Under the pieces are notes generated by a model. It made no database searches, had not been told where the DNA came from, and was given only the letters and a program-made list of their open reading frames with translations. Positions 1,240 to 26,667 of a stretch of 32,153 bases of DNA are shown piece by piece (the stretch's first letter is position 1; the number at the start of each line of letters is the position of its first letter). A program made the position numbers and the translations under genes. The DNA comes from a virus: the IMG/VR virus record IMGVR_UViG_3300006928_000041, positions 1-32,153 of that record. One strand, written 5' to 3'.

Positions 1240-2073
1240 ATGCCTATACCCTTATTATTAGTAAGACAAGCGTTATTTAAGCATTTCACACAGAGTGGGA
1301 AAACTAAAGCTGTAGCTGGAGTTGAGGTAAATGGCTTTCAAAAGGCTATCCAAGCATTACAGAAAAATTGGAAAGGTAAAAATTGCCCTAAAAAAATGGA
1401 TAAAGTTAAGGCTGGCATGGCTGGAATGGTTTTAGCCAGAATAGCAAACAATATAGGTGTTACTTCTCCTAAAGGTCAATTTAAGAAAACAATTAAACAG
1501 GGTCAGAAACATATCCAAAGAAAATTTAAATGGAGACCAATTAAACAAGGCTTTAAAGGAACAGGTCCATTGCCTAGAGGAATCCCTGCGCCATCTTATA
1601 AACACGCCCTAAAAGCTATTAAAGTTAATGGCTATTGGCATTATTATGATAGGGCCTATATTACTCAGAAAAGAGGGCAGCTTGCTATAGCTGAAAAAGC
1701 ATTAGATAAAAGGAAAAAAGTAGCTTTAAGAAGAGTTGCTTCAAGTAAATCTGGATTTTTTGGGGTAGCATTAAAGCTTAAATTGCCTGTAGGTCATTTT
1801 CACGAAAGAACCCAATTAAGGCTTGCTTGGCAATCAACTGGAGCAAAATTTCAAAGATTAACTAGAGGTGTAGAAATAAAAGATGAAAAGAGAAAAGGTT
1901 ATTTAATAAGAAGCACATCGAGAAATATGCTTAACCCTCATGTAAGAGGCTTAAAGCAAGTTAACGCTGCAATTAAAGGGTCAGGCACAACTATTAGAAA
2001 ATTAATTAAAGAAGGTTATGCTGATTCAATGGAAGAAATAACAGGATTCCTATTTAAATCTGTTAAAAAATGA
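1240..2073 (+). CDS. Basic protein of unknown function in the head module
   Basis: I do not recognise this 277-residue protein. It is very rich in lysine and arginine along its length and has no membrane segment or signal peptide. An N-terminal stretch (about residues 25-75: a G-x-x-K-A-I-x-A-L-x-K pattern, then an Ala/Met-rich helix) faintly recalls small tail-completion proteins of the lambda Z / HK97 gp10 kind, but the position between terminase and portal is wrong for those and the resemblance is weak. It starts 3 nt after terL stops, and its own stop overlaps the epimerase start (ATGA). It is therefore co-translated with both. Nucleic-acid binding or a structural role would fit the charge; neither is shown. 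Confidence 0.7.
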   Translation: MPIPLLLVRQALFKHFTQSGKTKAVAGVEVNGFQKAIQALQKNWKGKNCPKKMDKVKAGMAGMVLARIANNIGVTSPKGQFKKTIKQGQKHIQRKFKWRPIKQGFKGTGPLPRGIPAPSYKHALKAIKVNGYWHYYDRAYITQKRGQLAIAEKALDKRKKVALRRVASSKSGFFGVALKLKLPVGHFHERTQLRLAWQSTGAKFQRLTRGVEIKDEKRKGYLIRSTSRNMLNPHVRGLKQVNAAIKGSGTTIRKLIKEGYADSMEEITGFLFKSVKK

Positions 2074-2969
2074 GCAATATTTTAGTTACAGGTGGTGCAG
2101 GATTTATTGGTAGCCATTTAGTAGATCGCCTAATATCAGAAGGTCACAAGGTTATTTGTGTAGATAATAAATCAGCGGTTTCTAATCATATTTTCTTTGA
2201 GAATAGAAAGGCAGAAAACCTTTGCTTTGATATTTGTAGCTCAGAATATTTAAATCTTATTTTTGAAAAATACAAATTTGATTATGTATATCATTTAGCT
2301 GCTCAGTCTAGGATACAGATTTCATTACATGATCCTTTAAAAACATCTAGAACCAACTATATAGGAACGCATAATCTATTAGAATTATCTAAAAAATATT
2401 CTGTTAAGAATTTTATTTTTAGTTCTACCTCGTCAATTTACGGAAAAACACAAACAGCAGGGCCATTGCATGAAACAAATAGGTCAGATTGTTTAACTCC
2501 ATATTCTGTAAGCAAATTAGCCAGTGAGAATCTATGCAAAGTTTATGCTCAATTAGGTTTGCCTACTGTTTCTTTGAGGTATTTTAATGTTTATGGAGAT
2601 AGACAGCCTTTGAGAGGCGAATACGCTACAGTTATAGGGCTTTTTCTAAAGCAAAAAGCTGAAGGAGAAAATTTAACTGTTGTAGGTGATGGAAAACAGA
2701 CAAGAGATTTCACTCATGTCAGTGATGTAATAAATGCCAATATTGCTGCAAAAAATTGTCCCGAGGATTACAGAGGAGCCGTTTTTAATATTGGGTATGG
2801 TAAATCATACCCGATTATTGAAGTGGCAAAAACGATTTCTGACAAGATTTTGCACACTCCTATCAGATTTGGCGAAGCTAGGCATACTTTAGCTGATATT
2901 TCATTAGCCAAGAAAGTATTAGCATATAAACCTGAAACGAATCTCATGGATTATTTAGAAAAAAAGTAA
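2070..2969 (+). CDS. NAD-dependent sugar-nucleotide epimerase/dehydratase (extended SDR)
   Basis: This 299-residue protein is an extended short-chain dehydrogenase that acts on UDP- or dTDP-sugars with bound NAD. It has the Rossmann motif G8-x-x-G11-x-x-G14 at the N-terminus, HLAAQ (75-79), an SST segment at 118-120, the catalytic Y145-x-x-x-K149, and RDFTHVSDV (212-220) typical of UDP-glucose 4-epimerase and UDP-glucuronate epimerase relatives. The length is slightly short for GalE (about 330), with a compact C-terminus. The substrate cannot be set from sequence. Translation is coupled to the preceding gene by a 4-nt ATGA overlap. It is a metabolic gene inside a head operon. A UDP-glucose-dehydrogenase-like gene at 21763, a glycosyltransferase at 15105 and a sulfotransferase at 16168 suggest a shared sugar-modification role, which is inference. 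Confidence 0.92.
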   Translation: MSNILVTGGAGFIGSHLVDRLISEGHKVICVDNKSAVSNHIFFENRKAENLCFDICSSEYLNLIFEKYKFDYVYHLAAQSRIQISLHDPLKTSRTNYIGTHNLLELSKKYSVKNFIFSSTSSIYGKTQTAGPLHETNRSDCLTPYSVSKLASENLCKVYAQLGLPTVSLRYFNVYGDRQPLRGEYATVIGLFLKQKAEGENLTVVGDGKQTRDFTHVSDVINANIAAKNCPEDYRGAVFNIGYGKSYPIIEVAKTISDKILHTPIRFGEARHTLADISLAKKVLAYKPETNLMDYLEKK

Positions 2970-2988
2970 AAAAAAATAGCTTTTTTTG

Positions 2989-3022
2989 TTTACAGGTAAG
3001 CGAGAGTGGTTAGTATCTACTC
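2989..3022 (+). promoter_or_regulatory. Early-type promoter P1 in front of the head-module cassette
   Basis: It has TTTACA (2989-2994), a 16-nt spacer, TAGTAT (3011-3016), then 6 nt to the ATG at 3023. A run of seven T and a G precede the -35. The block just after the -35 (GGTAAGC) matches the other eight copies of this promoter, which all lie in the early region. The predicted transcription start coincides with the start codon. Confidence 0.75.
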
Positions 3023-3349
3023 ATGATTAATAACACTGACATGACAAACCAAATCCAAAACCTAACCGACCTCACCGAGATGGAACAAATCACCATAAAG
3101 GGAATCGCCTTAAATGAATATCAGCCTAATGGAAAACAACCCAAGCTTCTCAAGGATGGTTCTGTTGACCATACTCCTGTTTATACTGATGACCTAAATG
3201 AAATCATCAATTCTTTTGAAAATCGCAAGAGCTTATCTGGCTGTGTAAGTTCTTTGGTTAAAAAAGGATTAGTTTGGGCCGATGGCGATTGCATCGGATT
3301 CACCGAAAATGGTGAAAAATTAATTCTTGATCTGTGTTACTCAAACTAA
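3023..3349 (+). CDS. Small winged-helix-like protein in an independent transcription unit (moron candidate)
   Basis: This is a 108-residue protein of unknown function. Its C-terminal half (about 68-105) has the look of a winged helix: a helix with S-L-S-G-C-V-S-S-L, then K-K-G-L-V, a short hairpin and an x-F-T-E-N-G-E-K turn. The start at 3023 is chosen because it sits 6 nt behind P1's -10; an ATG at 3041 is an alternative and would give a 6-nt shift in residue numbering. The gene has its own early promoter and a strong intrinsic terminator right after it, while the genes on both sides are late structural genes. This is the classical layout of a phage moron. Codon use is less AT-skewed (more C-ending codons) than the epimerase before it and resembles the early genes. 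It may regulate or alter the host; no function is shown. Confidence 0.8.
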   Translation: MINNTDMTNQIQNLTDLTEMEQITIKGIALNEYQPNGKQPKLLKDGSVDHTPVYTDDLNEIINSFENRKSLSGCVSSLVKKGLVWADGDCIGFTENGEKLILDLCYSN

Positions 3350-3364
3350 TAAATCTAAAAACCA

Positions 3365-3386
3365 AGGGGCTTCGGCCCCTTTTTTT
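3365..3386 (+). terminator. Intrinsic terminator of the head-module cassette
   Basis: A 6-bp stem AGGGGC/GCCCCT closed by a TTCG tetraloop is followed by six T. It ends the transcript from P1 before the gpW-like gene. Late transcripts entering from terL would also have to pass it, which suggests antitermination or a separate late promoter downstream. Confidence 0.9.
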
Positions 3387-3415
3387 AGCGAAGTGGGACA
3401 AAATACTATAGGTAG

Positions 3416-15115: not shown

Positions 15116-16178
15116 AGATTTATTTGTAGTTTCTCTTGGCAATTTGCCTAACACTTACGACTCTTTAGATAAAAAATTCCCTGCACTTGATCCGCAAGGC
15201 AAAGGATTTATTTTTATTGGTGAATCTGAATCTGTTAAGCAAGCAGGTTTCTGGGCGAAAGATAGAAACCAAGAATGGATTGGTTTTGATCTTATTGATG
15301 GTATTGATACCGCATTAAAAGTTGCAAACTCATTTGAGTATAAAGGTTTCTCTCCTTCTGTAATCTATCTTGGAAATTTAAAGAAAAAATCTAAACCAAT
15401 AAAATCATTCTCTGTTATCGTTACAAAAGAATGTATGCGTGAAGCAGCTATTCTTTTATATTCGTTAAGAGTATTTCATTCAGAACCTGTTTTCATAATT
15501 TGCGATGATGAATCGAAAAAATATCTAAAACAATTTGATTTTAAAGATATTAATTTTAGAACAGAAGCAAACCAATCTGACCTTAAAAAAGCAGATGAAT
15601 TATGTTCAGATGTAGATATAAGAAATACTTACCATAGAAGAGATTGTATTCTTCTGAAAATGGATGTTTGGAAATGGGCAATAGATGAATGCGGTGATAG
15701 CCTATTTTTAGATGCTGATATTCTTTGCGTTTCAAATTTGAATGGAAGCAATACAGGAGATTTAACTCTTTCTCCTCATTATCATGCTGGGCCAAAATTA
15801 GATACTGCTAGAGATTTTGGAATCTTTAACGCAGGTTATCTATGGTCTAACAAAATTGAAGTACCAGATTATTGGAGAGAAATCTATTTAGAAGGCTCTA
15901 ATTTTTATGAGCAAGAATGTATGTATAAATTAGTTAGCAAATTTAAAACAGATTTCTTTTCTCAGTCTCACAATATTGGTTTTTGGAGATTTCCTGATTG
16001 TGATATAACTTCTGTTAGAAGTTGGCACGTTCATCTTACTGAAGATTTATTTGAAAATGCAAACGATGGGCTTCAGAGAAAATACAGAGAACATTCTCAA
16101 TTAGTATTAGATTGGTGCAGTCAACATGGTAGATTAGATATATGTGACTTTGTAGAAAAAATTACTTATGAAAAATAA
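15105..16178 (+). CDS. Glycosyltransferase with DxD motif
   Basis: This 357-residue protein appears to be a nucleotide-sugar glycosyltransferase. The second half has a GT-A-type core: strand F-S-V-I-V-T (102-107), F-L-D-A-D-I-L (201-207) with the metal-binding D203-x-D205, and F-N-A-G-Y-L-W-S-N (241-249), which is the N-A-G motif of GT8-like enzymes. The first 95 residues form a separate region of unknown role. Donor and acceptor cannot be read. Its place, coupled to the fibre gene by an 11-nt overlap and followed by a sulfotransferase with the same kind of overlap, points to modification of the fibre, another virion protein, or host surface glycan. The gene lies exactly between two copies of a 13-bp direct repeat (15102-15114 and 16165-16177). 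Confidence 0.82.
   Translation: MKNRDLFVVSLGNLPNTYDSLDKKFPALDPQGKGFIFIGESESVKQAGFWAKDRNQEWIGFDLIDGIDTALKVANSFEYKGFSPSVIYLGNLKKKSKPIKSFSVIVTKECMREAAILLYSLRVFHSEPVFIICDDESKKYLKQFDFKDINFRTEANQSDLKKADELCSDVDIRNTYHRRDCILLKMDVWKWAIDECGDSLFLDADILCVSNLNGSNTGDLTLSPHYHAGPKLDTARDFGIFNAGYLWSNKIEVPDYWREIYLEGSNFYEQECMYKLVSKFKTDFFSQSHNIGFWRFPDCDITSVRSWHVHLTEDLFENANDGLQRKYREHSQLVLDWCSQHGRLDICDFVEKITYEK
16165..16177 (+). repeat. 13-bp direct repeat, right copy (CTTATGAAAAATA)
   Basis: It matches 15102-15114 base for base. It makes the sulfotransferase start with MKN and the glycosyltransferase end with YEK, as at the fibre/glycosyltransferase junction. Confidence 0.8.
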
Positions 16179-19095: not shown

Positions 19096-19130
19096 TTTAC
19101 AGCCTAGCCGATAAGGTATAGATTCTATCT
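19096..19130 (+). promoter_or_regulatory. Early promoter P2
   Basis: TTTACA (19096-19101), 17-nt spacer, TAGATT (19119-19124), 6 nt, ATG at 19131. Preceded by CTATCTTTTTTG, shared with P3 and P4. The post -35 block is GCCTAGCC. Confidence 0.85.
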
Positions 19131-19430
19131 ATGCTTAACGGCACTAATAACACTGAACAAAAAAAACTGACAATGACCGCAACCAACGAAATATTCACTT
19201 ACAACTCAAGCACAATACAGAATAACGGAACAACTTTCCTTAATCCTAAAGCTGCAACCTTCGAGATTGTATACAAGGCAGATGGGCTAGAGGGTCAATT
19301 CGTAGCCAAAGGGGAGAACGAAGAAATTGTTCGCCAAGATGCGATGGAACTGTTCTCCAAAAAGGGTTTCAAAAACATTGAAATCAGTGTCACCGAATTC
19401 CTTCTTCCAGAAGAATTTTATATCGCCTAA
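19131..19430 (+). CDS. Small early protein with MLNGTN start
   Basis: This 99-residue early protein is not recognised. The first 14 codons come from the block ATGCTTAACGGCACTAAT shared with four other early units. A second ATG at 19173 begins M-T-A-T-N-E and may be the ancestral start, giving 85 residues. The C-terminal half (V-Y-K-A-D-G-L-E-G-Q-F-V-A-K-G, then a helix, then I-E-I-S-V-T-E) looks like a small alpha/beta fold. The start ATG is only 6 nt from the -10 of P2, so the transcript is expected to be leaderless. No Shine-Dalgarno motif precedes either start. Confidence 0.72.
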   Translation: MLNGTNNTEQKKLTMTATNEIFTYNSSTIQNNGTTFLNPKAATFEIVYKADGLEGQFVAKGENEEIVRQDAMELFSKKGFKNIEISVTEFLLPEEFYIA

Positions 19431-19469
19431 TAAATAATTAAAAAACTAACACTGAACCTAAAAACTAAA

Positions 19470-19841
19470 ATGAAAATAGAAATCACATACGAACAACTTA
19501 ACTGGCTACGTCAAGCGATGAGCGATTCACTTTTAAACAGCTTGTTGAAAGAAGAAAATAAAAATATGCCGCATCGCCTCCAACAAGACATTTGCGTTGA
19601 AATAGAAAAACTTCAAAAGGATATTTCAAACTGCACACCTGAAGATTCCTACGAGCCAAGGGAATACAGCCTCAGTTCTCAGGTCTCCGCTATACACAAC
19701 CTCCGCGATCACATTGATGACGAGCTTTGGAAGGAGTACGACAAGCATATGCAAAGCCATCCGTTCCCTGATACTTATCACGCTACGTTTGAAGAAGTGC
19801 AAAACAAGGAAGCAACACGCGAACGCCGCCTAAAACTCTAA
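19470..19841 (+). CDS. Hypothetical early protein
   Basis: This 123-residue protein of unknown function is mostly helical and charged, with an N-terminal Y-E-Q-L-N-W-L-R-Q-A-M helix and no membrane segment or cysteine cluster. Codons end in C or G more often than in nearby genes. It is second in the P2 unit. The leader reads ACTAACACTGAAC...AAA before the ATG with no Shine-Dalgarno motif. A hairpin lies 14 nt after the stop. Confidence 0.72.
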   Translation: MKIEITYEQLNWLRQAMSDSLLNSLLKEENKNMPHRLQQDICVEIEKLQKDISNCTPEDSYEPREYSLSSQVSAIHNLRDHIDDELWKEYDKHMQSHPFPDTYHATFEEVQNKEATRERRLKL

Positions 19842-19855
19842 CTGATAAAAACTGC

Positions 19856-19873
19856 GGGGAGGGAAACCTCCCC
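19856..19873 (+). other. GGGGAGG/CCTCCCC hairpin between early genes
   Basis: A 7-bp stem with GAAA loop, the same stem-loop as the terminator at 20583 but followed by CCAAAAA rather than T. On the minus strand it is followed by GCAGTTTTT, so it could stop antisense transcription. It may also stabilise the upstream mRNA. Confidence 0.65.
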
Positions 19874-19893
19874 CCAAAAAACTAACCTAACTA

Positions 19894-20283
19894 ATGAAGA
19901 TGAAAAAACAAACAATATACAGAGAAAAGCTACAAGAAAAATCTGACAGGCTTTTAAGAGAAAAAATCTTTGAAGAGGTAGAAATATTTTTCACAAAAAT
20001 GGGAACTGGTAAAAGACACGCTGTTGATAAATCACTAATCAATGCTGTTAATAAAAAAATCCATGAGGTTTTAGATCAGCCAAGCTTCATTGAATTAGAA
20101 AGTAAAAGGAGCAAAATAGTAGATGATATGCTTGTTCATGATAATTATTCTCCAGAGATGGAATTGCTTGTAGATGAATTAAAGGAAACGCATACACGAT
20201 TATTCTTTTGGCTTTCAAAAGAGGAACAAAGAGAATTCTGCATAAAGCAAACTGAACTTGAAGAGGAAAAATATTCTTCTTAA
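19894..20283 (+). CDS. Hypothetical helical early protein
   Basis: This 129-residue, highly charged and largely helical protein (many E-K and R-E runs) is not recognised. The ATG at 19900 is an equally good start. The leader is ACTAACCTAACTA with no Shine-Dalgarno motif. It ends just before P3 and is more AT-rich than the gene before it. Confidence 0.7.
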   Translation: MKMKKQTIYREKLQEKSDRLLREKIFEEVEIFFTKMGTGKRHAVDKSLINAVNKKIHEVLDQPSFIELESKRSKIVDDMLVHDNYSPEMELLVDELKETHTRLFFWLSKEEQREFCIKQTELEEEKYSS

Positions 20284-20301
20284 AAAAATCTATCTTTTTT
20301 G

Positions 20302-20336
20302 TTTACACGCTAACGGTTTGTGATTATATTCCTATT
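20302..20336 (+). promoter_or_regulatory. Early promoter P3
   Basis: TTTACA (20302-20307), 17-nt spacer, TATATT (20325-20330), 6 nt, ATG at 20337. The post -35 block is CGCTAACGGTT. Upstream CTATCTTTTTTG matches P2 and P4. Confidence 0.88.
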
Positions 20337-20573
20337 ATGCTTAACGGCACTAACACTGAACTAAAAAACGAAATGACACCTGAACAATACAAAAAAGAAA
20401 TCGACAGCCTATTATTTCAAATTTCTGAAATGCAAAAAGTTGTTGATAAATTTGAGGCTGGCTTAATTCCTTACTATGAAAATATTAAAGCAACTAAACA
20501 CGTTCTAAAAAATAAAAGGAATCGTGTTAAAATGTTGGTATTTGTTTTCAATAACCATAAAGCAAATGCCTAA
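20337..20573 (+). CDS. Small coiled-coil early protein with MLNGTN start
   Basis: This 78-residue protein starts with the shared MLNGTN block. The rest, from a second ATG at 20373 (M-T-P-E-Q-Y-K-K-E), is one long amphipathic helix pair: I-D-S-L-L-F-Q-I-S-E-M-Q-K-V-V-D-K-F, then a Pro-Tyr turn, then a basic helix. It is alone between P3 and an intrinsic terminator, so it is a single-gene unit. No function is recognised. Confidence 0.72.
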   Translation: MLNGTNTELKNEMTPEQYKKEIDSLLFQISEMQKVVDKFEAGLIPYYENIKATKHVLKNKRNRVKMLVFVFNNHKANA

Positions 20574-20582
20574 ATAAAATCG

Positions 20583-20605
20583 GGGGAGGGAAACCTCCCC
20601 TTTTT
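20583..20605 (+). terminator. Intrinsic terminator after the P3 unit
   Basis: GGGGAGG-GAAA-CCTCCCC followed by five T. The T-rich stretch runs almost directly into P4. Confidence 0.88.
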
Positions 20606-20619
20606 ATCTATCTTTTTTG

Positions 20620-20653
20620 TTTACAGAGTAAGAACTTATTTTAAATTAATCTC
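20620..20653 (+). promoter_or_regulatory. Early promoter P4
   Basis: TTTACA (20620-20625), 16-nt spacer, TAAATT (20642-20647), 6 nt, ATG at 20654. The post -35 block is GAGTAAG. Here the ATG begins a 10-codon leader ORF, not the main gene. Confidence 0.8.
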
Positions 20654-20686
20654 ATGCTTAACGGCATCAATAAAAACACTAACTAA
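20654..20686 (+). other. Ten-codon leader ORF (MLNGINKNTN) before the DUF932 gene
   Basis: This is the shared ATGCTTAACGGCA block, but a TAA follows after 10 codons. The DUF932 start lies 8 nt after this stop. It shows that the block can exist as a 5' leader separate from the protein-coding body. It may be a translated leader that delivers ribosomes to the next start. Confidence 0.6.
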
Positions 20687-20694
20687 CTAATACA

Positions 20695-21681
20695 ATGCAT
20701 AATATCCAAGAACGCGACATCCAAACAGGCTTAAACCAAGCATGGCACGGCCTGACAAACGTAGTAGATACTGTAACCAAAGAAAATTCAGGCATCATGT
20801 ATGACCTAAATTTTAATCGGCTCACTTATACTGCTCCTGATGAAACAGTAATTGAAACCGACAGCTACCAAATCAGTGCTGCTGATGATAATTTGCCGAT
20901 TGGCAAACCTGTTTCTAAAAAATACCAACCATTCAGCAATGAACAAATTTGGGATATGCTGGATGAAGCCTTAAAAGGAACTCATCATGTAATTCAATCT
21001 ATTGGAACTGTAGCTGATCGTTCATTAGGATTTGTTTCAGTAAAAATTGCTGATTCTTTTAATGCTGCTGGTCGTGAACATGATCCATTTCTAAATATCG
21101 GTTGGGGGCATGGCGGTACACTCGGTGTTATCGGAAAAACAGGAATCACCTGCGTTGTTTGCGAAAACACTTTCAACGCTGCGATGGCAGAAAAATCTGA
21201 CTTCAAGGTAAAATTAAAGCACACTCGCAATGCTAATCTGATGGATTTAACTGACGCGATTGAAGCACACATCGGCGTAACTGCTGAGTTTCAAATGGCA
21301 CTTGAACACATGGGCCAAATTAAATGCCAATCACATAATGCACAACGGATGTACCTCGGCCATTTGCTTGAAAATAAAGCTGATAAAAAGGTATCAAGCC
21401 GAACTGTAAATGTGATGAACAGAATGACCGAACTCTACCGAGAAGGTAAAGGCAACTCTGGTGAAACTATGGCTGATTGTTTCAACGGCTTAACCGATTA
21501 TTATACTCATGAATCTGCTGGCGGTTTGGAAAATACCCGCAAGCAATTTGAAAGTTCCGAATTCGGTTCTGGGAGCCAAAACAAATCTCGCTTTTTTAAA
21601 AATATCCAAAAGGATCATGGCGAAGAACTCCTAGCCATTGGAAACAAATACTGGGAGGATGCCATGCTGGTATCTAATTAA
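20695..21681 (+). CDS. DUF932 phage/plasmid protein
   Basis: This 328-residue protein belongs to the DUF932 family of phage and plasmid proteins. Marks are Q-A-W-H-G-L-T near residue 16, the central G-H-G-G-T-L-G-V-I-G-K-T-G-I-T-C-V-V-C-E-N-T pattern and the later D-Y-Y-T-H-E-S-A-G-G-L-E-N segment. No biochemical activity is established for the family that I can rely on. It is the largest early gene, alone between P4 and a strong terminator, and has codons richer in C and G than neighbours, consistent with high expression. The start is preceded by ACTAACTAATACA with no Shine-Dalgarno motif. Confidence 0.87.
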   Translation: MHNIQERDIQTGLNQAWHGLTNVVDTVTKENSGIMYDLNFNRLTYTAPDETVIETDSYQISAADDNLPIGKPVSKKYQPFSNEQIWDMLDEALKGTHHVIQSIGTVADRSLGFVSVKIADSFNAAGREHDPFLNIGWGHGGTLGVIGKTGITCVVCENTFNAAMAEKSDFKVKLKHTRNANLMDLTDAIEAHIGVTAEFQMALEHMGQIKCQSHNAQRMYLGHLLENKADKKVSSRTVNVMNRMTELYREGKGNSGETMADCFNGLTDYYTHESAGGLENTRKQFESSEFGSGSQNKSRFFKNIQKDHGEELLAIGNKYWEDAMLVSN

Positions 21682-21696
21682 AAACCCACCTCCTCG

Positions 21697-21726
21697 GGAG
21701 GGGCAGAAATGCCCCTCCTTTTTTTT
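21697..21726 (+). terminator. Strong intrinsic terminator fused to promoter P9
   Basis: GGAGGGGCA-GAAA-TGCCCCTCC followed by eight T. The T-run continues directly into the G-TTTACA of the next promoter. A competing hairpin, CCTCC (689-693 of this kilobase, i.e. 21689-21693) with GGAGG (21697-21701), would block the terminator stem. Confidence 0.9.
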
Positions 21727-21727
21727 G

Positions 21728-21762
21728 TTTACATTTTGCTCCTCCAAATTAAAGTCCAAACA
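21728..21762 (+). promoter_or_regulatory. Early promoter P9 (divergent member)
   Basis: TTTACA (21728-21733), 16-nt spacer, TAAAGT (21750-21755), 7 nt, ATG at 21763. It lacks the TAACC-type block after the -35 and the MLNGTN start. It supports 21763, not 21709, as the gene's start. Confidence 0.65.
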
Positions 21763-22605
21763 ATGGGAAATGCACTGAAGCTAGGAATAGTGGGAAATGG
21801 TTTTGTTGGAAACGCTACGTCTGGCTTGTCCTGCAAGAAAAATTCTGTTTTTATCTATGATCGTGTAGATTACAAATCGCATCCTCATAATTGCACAATG
21901 GATGATATTAGGTCTTGTGATTTAATATTTATTTGTTTGCCAACTCCAATGAATAAAGAGGGTGATTGCCATACAGATTTTATCTCACAAGCTATCGCTG
22001 ATTTTTCAACTGAAGAAAAAGCTAAAACATTTATACGCTCCACAACTCCAGTTGGCTTTTGCAAGGAATTAGGCGTAAATCATTTTCCTGAATTTCTAAC
22101 TGAAGCAAATGCTTCTGTAGATTTTATCGAAACAGATACATGGGTATTGGGAATTGATAACACCAATTTAGAAATTTATTCGTCAATTAAAGCTGCGCTT
22201 ACAAATGCTAAAGAAGCTAATGCAATTAAAAGTGATAATGTTTTTCTAACTCAATCAAATACATCTGAATTTATAAAGTTAGCTCGAAACAGTGTTTTAG
22301 CAACCAAAGTAAGCTTGTTCAATGAGCTTTACAAAATCGCTGAAGGAAAACACATCGGATGGAATGAAGCCTTAAATGGTATTTTAATAGATGATAGAAT
22401 AACATCCAGCCATACAAAGGTTCCTTGTAATGGGAATTTTGGTTTTGGTGGAACTTGTTTTCCTAAAGATATTTCTAACCTAATTAATTGCGCTAAAAAA
22501 TCTGATGTTGAAACATTCATTTTAGACGCTGCACAGGAAAGAAATAATAAGCTGGATAGGCCACTAAAAGATTGGGCCTTTGATATAAACCGTAGTGTGA
22601 TCTGA
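21763..22605 (+). CDS. UDP-glucose/GDP-mannose 6-dehydrogenase-like enzyme, short form
   Basis: This 280-residue protein belongs to the NAD-dependent family that oxidises UDP-glucose to UDP-glucuronate (or related sugars). It has the Rossmann G11-x-G13-x-x-G16, C-L-P-T-P-M (58-63), R-S-T-T-P-V-G (92-98), P-E-F-L-T-E (109-114), the Lys/Asn/Glu helix around K182-N187, and the catalytic cysteine motif G-F-G-G-T-C232-F-P-K235-D236. All catalytic residues I can check are present. It ends shortly after the central domain, so the third, C-terminal UDP-binding domain of the usual 390-440-residue enzymes is missing. The start at 21763 is set by promoter P9, and the upstream extension is hydrophobic and unlike the family. 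It is the only gene of its unit. Confidence 0.88.
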   Translation: MGNALKLGIVGNGFVGNATSGLSCKKNSVFIYDRVDYKSHPHNCTMDDIRSCDLIFICLPTPMNKEGDCHTDFISQAIADFSTEEKAKTFIRSTTPVGFCKELGVNHFPEFLTEANASVDFIETDTWVLGIDNTNLEIYSSIKAALTNAKEANAIKSDNVFLTQSNTSEFIKLARNSVLATKVSLFNELYKIAEGKHIGWNEALNGILIDDRITSSHTKVPCNGNFGFGGTCFPKDISNLINCAKKSDVETFILDAAQERNNKLDRPLKDWAFDINRSVI

Positions 22606-22680
22606 TTCTGCTAGAAACAGTACGCCTAGCTTCGTTTGTGAGCGTTCTTCTTAGCTCTCGAATATAAACATACCCCTGAG

Positions 22681-22702
22681 ATAACGTATGCCTATGCGTT
22701 AT
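22681..22702 (+). other. Hairpin in the gap after the sugar dehydrogenase
   Basis: A 9-bp stem with one G-T pair: ATAACGTAT, loop GCCT, ATGCGTTAT. A run of eight T begins only about 12 nt later, so it is a weak terminator candidate. The rest of the 162-nt gap holds no gene that I can support. Confidence 0.55.
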
Positions 22703-22732
22703 TCTACATACCTATTTTTTTTACTTTTTTTG

Positions 22733-22767
22733 TTTACAGGTAAGCCGTTTATGAATATATTCTATCT
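22733..22767 (+). promoter_or_regulatory. Early promoter P5
   Basis: TTTACA (22733-22738), 17-nt spacer, TATATT (22756-22761), 6 nt, ATG at 22768. The post -35 block is GGTAAGCCGTTTAT. Upstream is T-rich. Confidence 0.88.
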
Positions 22768-23001
22768 ATGCTAAACGGCACAAACAAAATCGAAAAACAA
22801 ATCGGCCTGAAACAAGGTAAAGATAAATTTGGTTGCAAGCAAACCGAACAACGCGCCAAACAAAATTTGGCTAAACTCAAAATGGCTAACGAGGTACTTG
22901 CTTTTTTGGAAACCAAATTAGGTGATAAGGCTGCTGGAGCAATGGATAATTTCCTTATTCAATACTCCATTGAAAATCTACACAAAACACTAATCAAATA
23001 A
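22768..23001 (+). CDS. Small basic early protein with MLNGTN start
   Basis: This 77-residue, lysine-rich, helical protein is of unknown function. The start block reads ATGCTAAACGGCACAAAC, a diverged copy that keeps MLNGTN. No second ATG lies close behind it, so here the block is probably truly part of the protein. It is followed after 5 nt by the next gene, in the same P5 unit. Confidence 0.7.
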   Translation: MLNGTNKIEKQIGLKQGKDKFGCKQTEQRAKQNLAKLKMANEVLAFLETKLGDKAAGAMDNFLIQYSIENLHKTLIK

Positions 23002-23006
23002 CTGAC

Positions 23007-23444
23007 ATGAAAACTAACACTGAAGTAACACTACTCACCATTGATAAAACGAATCCTAAAATTCAGGCAATTTGTAAAAATTACAATGATCGGATTGCTC
23101 GATATTTAGAACCTAAAACCAATATTTCTGATCCGAAATTTCGCAGAAAATCTGAAAAGTGGTTTGCAGAACAGGCCGATAAACTATGCGACCAACTTTA
23201 TGATATTTTGCTTTTAATACAGGAAACAACCACTGAATCAGGTGAACCTATTCTTAATTATGTGGATGATAGTGGCCATGTAAAATATGATTGCGAGCTT
23301 TGCACTATTGGAATTCCTATCTCCGCAACAAAGGAACAGGGAACTGGTTTCTGGTGCAAAGAACACTTTAAAACCGATGATGGTAAAATTAAAGAATTCA
23401 TGACCGAAGGTGATATGTCGGCCAAACTAATTCGTCAGTGTTAG
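23007..23444 (+). CDS. Early protein with a C-terminal zinc-finger-like motif
   Basis: This is a 145-residue protein of unknown function. Residues about 25-75 are helical and charged. Near 95-120 it has C-E-L-C and, 19 residues on, W-C-K-E-H-F, a C-x2-C...C-x2-H spacing that could hold zinc. The leader is AACTGAC with no Shine-Dalgarno motif. A large terminator hairpin follows 9 nt after the stop. Confidence 0.75.
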   Translation: MKTNTEVTLLTIDKTNPKIQAICKNYNDRIARYLEPKTNISDPKFRRKSEKWFAEQADKLCDQLYDILLLIQETTTESGEPILNYVDDSGHVKYDCELCTIGIPISATKEQGTGFWCKEHFKTDDGKIKEFMTEGDMSAKLIRQC

Positions 23445-23453
23445 TAAAACAAT

Positions 23454-23497
23454 CCCTGCTGCCCTCAAAGTCAGGTGAGGGTAGCAGGGGCCTTTTT
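23454..23497 (+). terminator. Long-stem intrinsic terminator
   Basis: CCCTGCT-G-CCCTCA pairs with TGAGGG-T-AGCAGGG across an 8-nt loop, giving a stem of about 14 pairs with one mismatch, then GCCTTTTT. No new promoter of the P family follows, so the genes at 23518 and 24107 need readthrough or another promoter. Confidence 0.85.
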
Positions 23498-23517
23498 AAT
23501 CTTAACGGAGAACAAAA

Positions 23518-24138
23518 ATGATTTATAAAAATACCACTAATCTAAATGATAAACTAATTCATAAGATGATTGCGTTCGCTTGCACACGCTGGCGGCAATT
23601 AACATCAGGCGATTTCAATAGAATTCCTAAATCACTTCATAATAAGTTTTTTAAGAAGCACATTCGTGAATTTACTATCACCAACAGAGAGGAAAATTAT
23701 TCAGGAGTGCATTATTACCTTGGTACAAATATAGGGTCAGAAATTAAATGTAGAATCGGAAAAAAATATAGGGGCAAATGGATTCAATTTGGAATCTGCA
23801 ATGAAAAGCCTGAAGATTATATTAAAAGAAATTTTCTTAATTATGAACGCGAGGTAATTGCAATGCACGTTATTGCTCATGAGGTTGGGCATGGATGTAT
23901 TCATCACAATGAATGCCATTCAAATAGAAAACCCAGTAGGCATTATGGAAAATCTAAAGGAGGAGATGAGGAATATATTGACCGAATTGCAGAAAAAATC
24001 ACACAGGAATTTTATGAACAGGGCCGACACCCATACATATCTGAATCTAACTTAAAGAAAATACTATCACTAAAACTAAATATAAACAGATTGAAAGATA
24101 CTAATAATGATTGGAAAGAATACAAAAACCAAGGATGA
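23518..24138 (+). CDS. Zinc metalloprotease-like protein (HExGH)
   Basis: This 206-residue protein has the zinc-protease helix A-H121-E122-V-G-H125, with histidines at 129-130 and an acidic segment G-G-D-E-E-Y further on. Upstream strands (F-T-I-T, H-Y-Y-L-G, W-I-Q-F-G-I) precede the helix, as in small SprT-like or metallopeptidase folds. The C-terminal 40 residues are basic. GGAG about 8 nt before the ATG is a good ribosome site. A phage protease in an early region could act on host proteins or stay inactive as a DNA-associated protein. The target is unknown. It overlaps the next gene by 32 nt. Confidence 0.78.
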   Translation: MIYKNTTNLNDKLIHKMIAFACTRWRQLTSGDFNRIPKSLHNKFFKKHIREFTITNREENYSGVHYYLGTNIGSEIKCRIGKKYRGKWIQFGICNEKPEDYIKRNFLNYEREVIAMHVIAHEVGHGCIHHNECHSNRKPSRHYGKSKGGDEEYIDRIAEKITQEFYEQGRHPYISESNLKKILSLKLNINRLKDTNNDWKEYKNQG

Positions 24139-24364
24139 AATAGATATTAAAAAGCTATTTGCTAATACTGTGGATGATAACATTCTTATGTTAAGAGAAT
24201 TAGAAACAGACCAAGATTCAAATGAAAGAAAAATTGAATCCTATAAAAAGGGCATAAAGGAAATGGAATTGAAGTTGTATGCATATAATAAAATTAAATC
24301 CATTATTGAAAATAAAATTACCACTGTAGAAAGTGTTATCCATATACAGGAGAATCAACCATAA
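24107..24364 (+). CDS. Small coiled-coil protein
   Basis: This 85-residue, highly charged, mostly helical protein has heptad-like Leu/Ile spacing from about 25 to 75. No function is recognised. It overlaps the metalloprotease gene by 32 nt, so it is co-translated. No Shine-Dalgarno motif is clear. Confidence 0.65.
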   Translation: MIGKNTKTKDEIDIKKLFANTVDDNILMLRELETDQDSNERKIESYKKGIKEMELKLYAYNKIKSIIENKITTVESVIHIQENQP

Positions 24365-24467
24365 ACTCGGTGCGTAGTTTAACGTCTAAGCGTACTTTAG
24401 AATATTGGTATATGATTACATACCCCATATACAGCCTGAAAAAAGTTTCATTTTTCTTATTTTATTG

Positions 24468-24502
24468 TTTACAGGCTAACACCTAACGTGTAAGGTTTCA
24501 CC
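24468..24502 (+). promoter_or_regulatory. Early promoter P6
   Basis: TTTACA (24468-24473), 17-nt spacer, TAAGGT (24491-24496), 6 nt, ATG at 24503. The post -35 block is GGCTAACACC. Upstream GAAAAAAGTTTCATTTT resembles P7 and P8. The 138-nt gap before the gene otherwise holds no gene I can support. Confidence 0.75.
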
Positions 24503-24673
24503 ATGATAACTGATTGCAACAAACAAATCACAAAGAAAACCCAACGGGGCGAAAAAATCACTTACACCAAACACTTCATGTTTGGAAAAACTGACCGATT
24601 GACCTCAGTGGTAGTTGCAAATAACGGAAAAGAAATTCTTTTGGATACAGGTGATTCAATCCGATTTGCTTAA
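24503..24673 (+). CDS. 56-residue early protein placed by its promoter
   Basis: This short reading frame starts 6 nt after the -10 of P6, the same spacing as in the other units, which is the main evidence that it is a gene. The protein begins M-I-T-D-C-N-K-Q, has a basic first half and a beta-like second half (L-T-S-V-V-V-A-N-N-G-K-E-I-L-L). Its function is unknown. It ends 22 nt before the next gene. Confidence 0.68.
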   Translation: MITDCNKQITKKTQRGEKITYTKHFMFGKTDRLTSVVVANNGKEILLDTGDSIRFA

Positions 24674-24695
24674 TTTTCTAACCTTAATAAATGCT

Positions 24696-25070
24696 ATGAA
24701 CTACGGCGAATTACGAAAACGATTTCAAATTAGAAAATTTGATGAGCAAATTTCTGAAATCAAAAAATTGCCAAATGCTAAATACTTTTTAGATAACGGA
24801 TGGGGAGCGTGGGCTTCTTATTCTTATGCAGAAGAGGGATTAGTAAAATGCAGAAAGAGCGGCAAACATTTTAGGCTGACAGGTTATATTGGCAAAATAA
24901 TTTTTAAATCTGGAAAAGAAATAGATGAAAAGCGATATAAAATCGGGCCTGAAATTGATTATGTTCAATATATCAGAGATGTTTTAAATGTTAAAATCAA
25001 AGCAGGAATTCTTCCTGCTGATTATGATATTGAAAACTATGTTCAAACCTCACCAAGCATGAATTATTAA
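24696..25070 (+). CDS. Hypothetical early protein
   Basis: This is a 124-residue protein with an N-terminal helix (Y-G-E-L-R-K-R-F) and a central G-W-G-A-W-A-S-Y-S-Y-A-E-E-G stretch with many aromatics, then strands with basic residues. No family is recognised. The start at 24696 is preferred; an upstream in-frame extension lies inside the previous gene and has a different, hydrophobic composition. It is second in the P6 unit. Confidence 0.72.
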   Translation: MNYGELRKRFQIRKFDEQISEIKKLPNAKYFLDNGWGAWASYSYAEEGLVKCRKSGKHFRLTGYIGKIIFKSGKEIDEKRYKIGPEIDYVQYIRDVLNVKIKAGILPADYDIENYVQTSPSMNY

Positions 25071-25094
25071 AATGAAAAAAGTTGCATTTTATGG

Positions 25095-25132
25095 TTTACA
25101 GCCTAGCCATTAACCTGTATAAACTAACCAAC
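25095..25132 (+). promoter_or_regulatory. Early promoter P7
   Basis: TTTACA (25095-25100), 17-nt spacer, TATAAA (25118-25123), then 9 nt to ATG at 25133, so a leader of about 3 nt. The post -35 block GCCTAGCC equals that of P2. Upstream GAAAAAAGTTGCATTTTAT is also found in front of P8. Confidence 0.85.
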
Positions 25133-25378
25133 ATGACTGCTAATAACCGAATCCAATATATCAAATCTAATCCAACACATATTTGCGTTGATTCAACTTA
25201 TTTTTCATTGACCCGTAACTATGCTTGTCCAAAAGCACGGTTCCAAATCAAGGGTTGCCTCGATATTGTGCAGTTCGATAAACAGAAATATTCTATCAAG
25301 CAGCAAATGCTCATCACGCTCGCTGAAAATTTTCACAACGCTTTTAACCTGTTCGTACTCAAAGGAGATTCAAAATGA
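25133..25378 (+). CDS. Hypothetical early protein
   Basis: This 81-residue protein of unknown function has a beta-like first half with two cysteines (C-V-D-S-T-Y-F and A-C-P-K-A-R-F) and a helical second half (Q-M-L-I-T-L-A-E-N-F). The start at 25133 is fixed by P7; upstream extension would place codons in the promoter. It overlaps the next gene by 4 nt. Confidence 0.72.
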   Translation: MTANNRIQYIKSNPTHICVDSTYFSLTRNYACPKARFQIKGCLDIVQFDKQKYSIKQQMLITLAENFHNAFNLFVLKGDSK

Positions 25379-25872
25379 ATATATTTATTTTAGATGATGA
25401 CCCTAAACAGGCTGCAGAGTGGTTATGCGATAAGCATATTTGCAAAATGATTGTCGAATCTGCACAAATGCTTTGTTCAGCCTATCCAGAAAAATATAAA
25501 GCACCCTACAAGGCAACATACATAAATCATCCTTGCACAAAGTGGACTCGTTCATCCCGCATGAATTTTAACTGGCTGTTAGATCACGCTTTCACATTGT
25601 GCGATGAATACACAAAACGCTACGGTAAAATCCACAAATCAGCACAGGTAATAGATTGGTGCTGGATGAAATCAAATAAACTTACCTTTCCTGCATACGA
25701 ACAAACTCCGTTTATAAAAGCTATGCCAGATGGATATAAAGTAGATTGCCCGATTACCTCTTATCGCAATTATTATAATCATGAAAAATCCCGTTTCGCA
25801 AAATGGGAACGTGGCAACAAAAATATTCCCTTCTGGTACAAGAACAAATATCAACCTGAACTAACTAAATAA
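25375..25872 (+). CDS. Conserved phage protein of the 'MNIF-x-LD-x-DP' type
   Basis: This 165-residue protein matches a pattern I associate with a widespread uncharacterised phage family: M-N-I-F-I-L-D-D-D-P, C-D-K-H-I-C-K-M-I-V-E-S-A-Q-M-L, N-H-P-C-T-K-W, then L-C-D-E-Y-T-K-R-Y-G-K and A-M-P-D-G-Y-K-V-D, S-Y-R-N-Y-Y. Conserved His, Cys, Asp and Lys suggest an enzyme. It has no membrane segment. I do not assign a reaction; relatives are sometimes named after pyrimidine-dimer glycosylases, which I cannot confirm here. AAAGGAG upstream is a strong ribosome site. Confidence 0.75.
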   Translation: MNIFILDDDPKQAAEWLCDKHICKMIVESAQMLCSAYPEKYKAPYKATYINHPCTKWTRSSRMNFNWLLDHAFTLCDEYTKRYGKIHKSAQVIDWCWMKSNKLTFPAYEQTPFIKAMPDGYKVDCPITSYRNYYNHEKSRFAKWERGNKNIPFWYKNKYQPELTK

Positions 25873-25874
25873 CT

Positions 25875-26075
25875 ATGAATCATTATCTCGTAATATTAAA
25901 TAACGGTGCTGAAGTCGAAGTGTTTGCTCCAAATTGGATGGTCGCTCCTGCTTACGCAATTAAGGAATACAGAGAAAAGAACCCTGATGCTCCTGATAAT
26001 TTGGGAATGACAGATATTAAGGCAGTAAATGCTGACGATATGGTAACGTGGGGAAAATCAGATAAGAAATTATAG
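25875..26075 (+). CDS. Small early protein
   Basis: This 66-residue protein begins with a strand pair (Y-L-V-I-L-N-N-G-A-E-V-E-V-F-A-P) and ends with a charged helix. The W-M-V-A-P-A-Y-A-I-K-E-Y-R-E core looks like a small alpha/beta unit. It starts 2 nt after the preceding stop. The function is unknown. Confidence 0.65.
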   Translation: MNHYLVILNNGAEVEVFAPNWMVAPAYAIKEYREKNPDAPDNLGMTDIKAVNADDMVTWGKSDKKL

Positions 26076-26078
26076 CTC

Positions 26079-26270
26079 ATGGATTACATAAGCGACCATA
26101 TTGAATACAAAAAAATGTGTGAAAAATATGGCGAGAAAGCTATATGGCAAGAACCAAATCACGCAAACGCTCAAGGCTATATAGAAGGTGATCGAAAAAT
26201 AACTCTAAAAGATTATCCAAAAAGGTTAAGGAATTATGGCAGAAGAAAATCAAATAAAGAAAATGGCTGA
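26079..26270 (+). CDS. Small basic early protein
   Basis: This 63-residue protein of unknown function has a basic C-terminus (P-K-R-L-R-N-Y-G-R-R-K). It starts 3 nt after the previous stop and overlaps the next frame by 35 nt. No Shine-Dalgarno motif is clear. Confidence 0.55.
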   Translation: MDYISDHIEYKKMCEKYGEKAIWQEPNHANAQGYIEGDRKITLKDYPKRLRNYGRRKSNKENG

Positions 26271-26415
26271 ATCATCTTCATTCGGAAGATTCCTAGCTAA
26301 CAAAAGCAACAAGGATAGAATCTGGTGCAGAAGTGATCTTGGTAGCAGAGCAGCAAGGCGAGCATCAGAACAAGCCCATAAGAGGGAACTGAAAAGGGCC
26401 ATGAAAAAAAAGTGA
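26236..26415 (+). CDS. Small arginine-rich protein
   Basis: This 59-residue protein has a basic C-terminal half (R-A-A-R-R-A-S-E-Q-A-H-K-R-E-L-K-R). A frame-overlap of 35 nt with the previous gene and a stop just before P8 fit the dense packing here. It is likely nucleic-acid binding by charge. No family is recognised. Confidence 0.6.
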   Translation: MAEENQIKKMAESSSFGRFLANKSNKDRIWCRSDLGSRAARRASEQAHKRELKRAMKKK

Positions 26416-26434
26416 AAAAAGTTGCATTTTATTG

Positions 26435-26469
26435 TTTACAGGTTAACCGTTTACCTATATATTCCTATT
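26435..26469 (+). promoter_or_regulatory. Early promoter P8
   Basis: TTTACA (26435-26440), 17-nt spacer, TATATT (26458-26463), 6 nt, ATG at 26470. The post -35 block is GGTTAACCGTTTA, a near palindrome. It is the last P-type promoter in the window and may transcribe through the recombination genes to the right edge, since no terminator is seen after it. Confidence 0.88.
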
Positions 26470-26667
26470 ATGCTTAACGGCACTAATAACACTGAAAACA
26501 AAATGTACTCGATCATAATTACTTGGGATAACACTGACCCTTATGTTTACGGCCCGTATGCTACCGAAGATGAAGCAAAGGACGCCCTGCAAAAAATTGA
26601 AGATAAATGGGACGATTGGGACTGGCGTCACCAAACAGGCCGTAACATTCAAAAAATGGAGAAATAA
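26470..26667 (+). CDS. Small acidic early protein with MLNGTN start
   Basis: This 65-residue protein begins with the shared MLNGTN block. A second ATG at 26503 starts M-Y-S-I-I-I-T-W-D-N and gives 54 residues. The body is Asp/Trp-rich (D-K-W-D-D-W-D-W-R) with a helix A-T-E-D-E-A-K-D-A-L-Q-K-I. The function is unknown. Transcription from P8 is expected to start at the first ATG. Confidence 0.7.
   Translation: MLNGTNNTENKMYSIIITWDNTDPYVYGPYATEDEAKDALQKIEDKWDDWDWRHQTGRNIQKMEK

Follow-up and report, generated by a model that had tools for sequence, protein, structure and literature searches.

Leaderless mRNAs, which begin with a 5'-terminal AUG, are known from the cI gene of phage lambda and are common in mycobacteria, and phage morons are cargo genes that carry a promoter and a terminator of their own. 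In Deinococcus-Thermus the -10 region adjoins open reading frames (ORFs), giving leaderless mRNA (PMC12340547), and in Escherichia coli upstream AUGs (uAUGs) at the mRNA 5' end are bound by 70S ribosomes and, in cases such as that of ptrB, drive or modulate expression of the cistron that follows (PMC4965119). Cluster K mycobacteriophages carry start-associated sequences (SAS), an untranslated 13-bp GGGATAGGAGCCC with an AGGAG Shine-Dalgarno core that lies 3-7 bp upstream of the start codon (PMC3203893). Here we describe a repeat at the starts of early genes in an uncultured marine phage, the virus record IMGVR_UViG_3300006928_000041, analyzed over its whole 32,153 bases (the window). The repeated sequence, which we call the start block, begins at the ATG, and we think it probable that it belongs to a portable leaderless promoter-start cassette and that the 5' end of this cassette, rich in CA and poor in G, aids initiation by 70S ribosomes.

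A preliminary description of this DNA had listed five early genes that open with the same block, and a search for ATGCTTAACGGCACTAA together with shuffled controls bore out all five sites. When up to three mismatches were allowed, ATGCTTAACGGCACTAA matched at exactly five positions, all on the + strand (19131, 20337, 20654, 22768 and 26470). The match is exact at 19131, 20337 and 26470, with two mismatches at 20654 and 22768, and the five copies share the first 17 bases counted from the start codon. Only 0.08 copies were expected in shuffled sequence, and no shuffle reached five; the feature is real and non-random. The second shared stretch noticed in three cases is AACACTGAA, found downstream of the block at 19149, 20352 and 26488, and the second ATG said to follow 33-42 nt later in three cases was recovered in frame at +42 (19131), +36 (20337) and +33 (26470). 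The downstream proteins are unrelated, as had been claimed: stripped of the block, they showed no similarity when compared with each other, and the four small fused proteins had no homologues among GenBank phages. The claim that the copies are almost identical at silent positions holds only in part, because positions 6, 15 and 18, each the third of its codon, vary among the four MLNGTN copies. Conservation at the protein level only, with homologous proteins behind the block, had been named as the result that, in relatives, would speak against a reused element; silent sites are indeed free in part, yet no homology links the proteins behind the copies.

The block is a real repeat but not, as first described, a complete element, since the repeat begins about 48 nt upstream of the ATG. 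It runs from a T-tract through TTGTTTACA, a spacer of 16-17 nt, a TATATT-like hexamer and the ATG into the block, and fades by about +33; the 88-nt copies of promoter plus block are 65-78% identical when aligned. The block ATG stands 34-35 nt after TTTACA, in its T-tract/TTGTTTACA context, and 6 nt after the -10 hexamer, and a full block is always at the first ORF behind a TTTACA-type promoter, never at an internal gene. TTTACA occurs 24 times on the + strand, with an ATG at +34/+35 in eight cases and in 0-3 at any other offset from 20 to 59. The pattern TTTACA-16/18-TANNNT-5/7-ATG was found eight times in the forward direction, and neither the reverse strand nor a reversed-pattern control gave any match. 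The distance from -10 to ATG is 6-7 nt at 3023, 19131, 20337, 20654, 21763, 22768, 24503 and 26470, and looser at 25133. For sigma-70 promoters, 6 nt from the -10 hexamer is the standard distance to +1, and the mRNA is therefore predicted to start at the AUG. A generic sigma-70 scan gave 27 promoter-like matches overall against 29.9 by chance, which is no excess; what carries the argument is therefore the specific spacing between TTTACA and ATG.

Conservation along the repeat is uneven. Among the four gap-free copies, identity is 100% in the -35, 50-62% in the spacer, 92% in the -10, 94% over block positions +1..+17, 56% over +18..+32 and 26-30% beyond +33. The spacer has drifted while the block has not, suggesting that the block was kept as neighboring sequence diverged. 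Gene 3023 starts with ATGATTAATAACACTGACATG, recognizable as the second half of the block, and its peptide opens MINNTD. Thus the idea of a transplanted 5' element stands insofar as a reused element is fused to unrelated genes, but the block is not free-standing: it is the stretch from +1 to about +30 of a promoter-ATG cassette (Table 1).

Table 1. Start blocks, promoters and associated features of the window.
Feature	Position	Strand	Remarks
Start block ATGCTTAACGGCACTAATAACACTGA	19131..19156	+	In-frame fusion to 99-aa ORF; second in-frame ATG 19173
Start block ATGCTTAACGGCACTAACACTGA	20337..20359	+	Fused to 78-aa ORF; second in-frame ATG 20373
Start block as unfused 10-codon leader ORF, MLNGINKNTN-stop	20654..20686	+	Stop 8 nt before DUF932 start 20695
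Start block ATGCTAAACGGCACAAAC	22768..22785	+	Fused to 77-aa ORF; second ATG not nearby
Start block ATGCTTAACGGCACTAATAACACTGA	26470..26495	+	Fused to 65-aa ORF; second in-frame ATG 26503
Promoter TTTACA-17-TAGATT-6-ATG	19096..19133	+	Predicted leaderless start 19131
Promoter TTTACA-17-TATATT-6-ATG	20302..20339	+	Start 20337
Promoter TTTACA-16-TAAATT-6-ATG	20620..20656	+	Start 20654
Promoter TTTACA-17-TATATT-6-ATG	22733..22770	+	Start 22768
Promoter TTTACA-17-TATATT-6-ATG	26435..26472	+	Start 26470
Promoter TTTACA-17-TAAGGT-6-ATG without block	24468..24505	+	Gene 24503, CA-rich start
TTGTTTACA promoter 35 nt from ATG 21763	21728..21765	+	Without block, CA-rich start or GGNTAACC spacer
Promoter of the same family, 38 nt to ATG 25133	25095..25135	+	Without block; predicted 5' leader about 3 nt long
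Promoter (spacer 16, 6 nt to ATG 3023) and shortened block ATGATTAATAACACTGA	2989..3039	+	In cargo insertion of about 1.3 kb
ACTAACACTGAACCTAAAAACTAAAATG containing AACACTGA (at 19448)	19445..19472	+	Untranslated leader before ATG 19470
Terminator-like hairpin and T-run	20582..20605	+	Ends the 20337 unit; T-run leads into next promoter

Leaderless initiation, one of the two roles suggested for the block at the outset, is strongly indicated by the promoter spacing. No Shine-Dalgarno sequence was found upstream of 20654, 21763, 22768, 25133 or 26470. At 3023, 19131, 20337 and 24503 there are weak matches, but these fall in promoter sequence, ahead of the predicted +1, and would therefore be unusable in a leaderless mRNA. 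In every cassette case the start codon is AUG. We regard the prediction of leaderless expression from the sequence as fairly secure, but not the specific job of the block. In the mechanism that we infer from these features, RNA polymerase would recognize the T-tract/TTGTTTACA as -35 and, 16-17 nt on, the TATATT-like -10. Transcription would begin six nt past the -10, at the A of the ATG, yielding a leaderless mRNA whose 5'-terminal AUG could be bound by 70S ribosomes without a Shine-Dalgarno sequence. The shared first 17-27 nt or so (CTTAACGGCACTAA plus AACACTGA; CA-rich, G-poor) may then act as a downstream translation enhancer. The cassette would drive short early transcription units, which new genes would join by in-frame fusion, usually retaining their own ATG 11-14 codons in. 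Alternatively, as at 20654, a gene could sit behind a 10-codon leader ORF, with terminating ribosomes delivered to the DUF932 start 8 nt on.

Base composition is in keeping with such an enhancer. In the 30 nt that follow each of the nine predicted starts, C is more frequent and G less frequent than at other starts, and the triplets ACA, AAC and CAA number 5.7 per start against 2.2 at other starts (p=0.001). The octamer AACACTGA is present in 10 copies on the + strand, with about one expected on both strands, and most copies lie no more than 25 nt from a start. This excess near starts, which includes one copy in an untranslated leader, favors an RNA-level role in initiation. A passage in PMC9031893, citing Martin-Farmer and Janssen 1999, states that leaderless translation is raised by CA repeats downstream of the start, and in Salmonella initiation is enhanced by ACA motifs (PMC3879156).

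A separate observation concerns several early starts with no promoter immediately in front of them. The sequence upstream of these (19445-19472, 19880-19899, 20672-20697 and 25856-25877) is G-free, rich in CTAAC/ACTAACTAA and lacks a Shine-Dalgarno sequence, while various structural genes do have AAGGAG-type sites; the context of initiation may be a different one in the early region.

We then considered the genes behind the cassette. A second in-frame ATG within 15 codons occurs in four of the five block-type fused genes (3023 counted) versus 9 of 48 other genes (p=0.011), which fits a prefix added to genes whose original ATG was retained. At 20654 the next gene starts at 20695 (+41), out of frame, and the block forms a separate ORF. 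This leader is a short ORF at the predicted 5' end of the mRNA with its stop close to the next start, as in uAUG cases, and we infer that it may be translationally coupled to the DUF932 gene. Terminator-like hairpins separate several units (20582, 21696 and 23453), and the T-runs of those at 20582 and 21696 continue directly into the next TTGTTTACA. Gene 3023 has both its own promoter (2989) and its own terminator (3364-3381). The segment 2020-3393, which holds gene 3023 and a sugar-epimerase gene, is missing from L018, the sole diverged relative available for this comparison (its terminase is 75% identical to that of this phage), in which the flanking genes are adjacent. This segment looks like a moron-like insertion, and the cassette is thus found on cargo that comes and goes.

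The G-rich start at 21763, behind a TTGTTTACA promoter, belongs to a gene (21763-22605) whose product falls in the nucleotide-sugar dehydrogenase family (UDPG_MGDP_dh, UDP-sugar dehydrogenase family). Together with the epimerase at 2070 and, at 16168, a sulfotransferase-like protein, this dehydrogenase suggests a sugar-modifying gene set in the phage.

Exact and degenerate scans of the viral collection for the block returned only a near-identical strain and chance coding matches. Protein scans with DUF932, portal, RecT and terminase likewise found as relatives only near-identical strains (L006/L015/L017/L145, L016 and L019) and the diverged fragment L018, which lacks the early region. Outside the near-identical strain, matches to the spacer element GNNTARNC after TTGTTTACA had neither a -10 nor a real ORF and seem to be due to chance.

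The promoter geometry, in contrast to the block, recurs. IMGVR_UViG_3300032770_000002, a 230-kb phage contig of about 55% GC in the sampled stretch and with no detected relation to this phage, carries 18 TTTACA-16/18-TANNNT-5/7-ATG units against none in the control (loci L021, L028, L044, L047 and L146-L162). Every unit opens a reading frame of 60 codons or more; TTG precedes 16 of the 18 units, most of them with a T-tract. The promoter there takes the form TTTTTGTTTACA-16/17-TATATT-like-5/7-ATG with a different shared spacer, AAATnnnGGnnnTGTGG, and the 18 starts share no block. This uncultured jumbo phage seems to use leaderless expression on a large scale. Since the contig has the geometry without the block, two phages share the leaderless promoter layout, while the block is particular to one of them. 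Three more groups of related viral contigs in IMG/VR (L024/L046/L048, L025/L029/L043 and L042/L050/L051) have TTGTTTACA-17-TATATT-6-ATG, predicted to be leaderless, before short ORFs of 70, 89 and 106-109 aa in most members.

A search of 84,980 species genomes of bacteria and archaea for the exact leaderless consensus gave 55 matches, counting one per contig. A single conserved coding sequence of Bacteroidota accounts for about half of these matches, and no more than 11 begin an ORF of at least 60 aa. The consensus is thus rare and mostly coincidental in these genomes, identified no host lineage there, and is not obviously a host idiom.

Several results weigh against the cassette interpretation, in which the transcription starts are sequence predictions. 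The block is not required, because 24503 and 25133 have the promoter without it and 21763 does not even have a CA-rich start; nor are the 18 starts of the 230-kb contig CA-rich. AACACTGA is also found at internal genes (23007 and 19470) and so is not specific to leaderless starts, some early genes with high CA content are not behind a TTTACA-type promoter, and folding of the start regions is not significantly weaker than that of other genes (p=0.06).

Two other readings are serious rivals, although we consider either of them unlikely. In one, a leaderless promoter is joined to an N-terminal peptide tag, MLNGTN(N)TE, kept for a job at the protein level such as localization, stability or binding of a phage or host partner, and the DNA would be similar because descent and reading frame are shared. 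None of the three differences among the four MLNGTN copies changes an amino acid; codon positions 1 and 2 are invariant and three of five third positions vary (p=0.022 if the differences were randomly placed), which fits a constraint on the peptide better than one on RNA only. Moreover, the missense change (T to I) falls in the unfused copy at 20654, and where AACACTGA follows a start within coding sequence, its in-frame translation is NT(E/D). However, this constant frame is weak evidence, as one other frame would make a TGA stop, and AACACTGA also occurs outside coding sequence, at 19448. The peptide of 20654 is joined to no protein, gene 3023 has the shortened form only, and non-preferred codons such as AAC and GGC are common to all five copies. 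Agreement in codon choice over the five copies is far beyond independent choice (product about 1e-5), but this is not decisive because common descent explains it as well.

Common descent is the core of the other serious rival, to which we would give a similarly small share of belief. The block copies, duplicated along with their promoter, could simply not have diverged yet, being mainly young or homogenized by recombination, with selection acting on promoter and ATG and not on the block. No interruption breaks the repeat between the T-tract and about +32, a RecT recombinase is among the phage's gene products, and the carrier gene 3023 lies in a segment that L018 lacks. The difference between spacer/discriminator (50-62%) and block (94%) within the same copies nevertheless calls for selection or very local gene conversion.

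It seems distinctly improbable that the block, or the spacer element GGNTAACC, serves as a regulator site, whether as operator, as antitermination site or as a mini-hairpin at the 5' terminus that acts on transcription or mRNA decay. The strict position relative to +1 and the terminators between several units would suit such a site, and a small 5' hairpin, UGCU/GGCA, can form in all five copies. We rejected a role for this hairpin, which shows neither excess stability nor covariation: it is weak (about -2 to -3 kcal/mol), shuffled sequences fold as stably (z about -1 to 0.1), and its stem is invariant. An Rfam search gave no match, and the promoters at 3023, 24503 and 25133 do without the hairpin. 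The least credible reading, a homology patch for shuffling early cassettes, could draw on the unrelated cargo behind similar DNA, on RecT and on the cassette-bearing insertion 2020-3393, but we give it hardly any weight, as identity peaks at the -35, the -10 and just after the ATG, as for expression signals, and such short repeats, 65-78% alike, are poor recombination substrates.

A broader proposal can be put forward only tentatively. Some phages may express much of their early region through one standardized leaderless cassette made of an extended -35 (TTGTTTACA), a -10 and an ATG at +1, to which this phage would add a portable CA-rich block acquired by in-frame fusion or by coupling through a 10-codon leader. 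Such a cassette would amount to a phage-specific, Shine-Dalgarno-independent system reused by distinct lineages, and it could show how phages make acquired genes immediately expressible, by plugging them in behind a standard leaderless start. Because the geometry recurs in a 230-kb phage, leaderless expression of early genes can be tested as a strategy of phages in general. Gene callers are liable to misplace or miss the starts of such cassettes. If confirmed, the cassette would provide a compact part, of natural origin, that combines promoter and start, and it would allow the tuning of leaderless translation by codons 2-9 to be tested.

How does this cassette compare with the systems described to date? 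In the literature, a repeated cassette of promoter, ATG and coding block before many unrelated genes of one phage was not found; the search covered open-license papers only and is weak evidence. The full blocks all lie in the early region, on the + strand and before unrelated genes, a SAS-like trait by analogy only. Like the SAS of cluster K (PMC3203893), the block is a short oriented repeat at the starts of unrelated non-structural genes in one phage group. Unlike them, it begins at the ATG rather than upstream of it, is translated, stands behind its own promoter, differs in sequence from GGGATAGGAGCCC and has no AGGAG; the preliminary comparison with cluster K therefore does not extend to membership of that class. 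Gene 3023 resembles a moron in having its own promoter and terminator within a segment absent from L018. The other cassette copies, however, form an array in the early region and are not single insertions among late genes, and the absent segment also holds the epimerase gene. The short, predicted leaderless ORF at 20654, with stop and next start 8 nt apart, parallels the E. coli 5'-terminal uAUGs and upstream ORFs (PMC4965119), but the main start at 20695 has no Shine-Dalgarno sequence, whereas the E. coli main starts have one. With the ORFs of Deinococcus-Thermus (PMC12340547) this phage shares a -10 beside the ORF, and it adds a conserved extended -35 (TTGTTTACA) and the shared start block. 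As in known leaderless mRNAs, no Shine-Dalgarno sequence is used and the AUG is predicted at +1; the difference is that here one promoter-ATG cassette, leaderless by prediction, repeats with shared coding sequence before many unrelated early genes.

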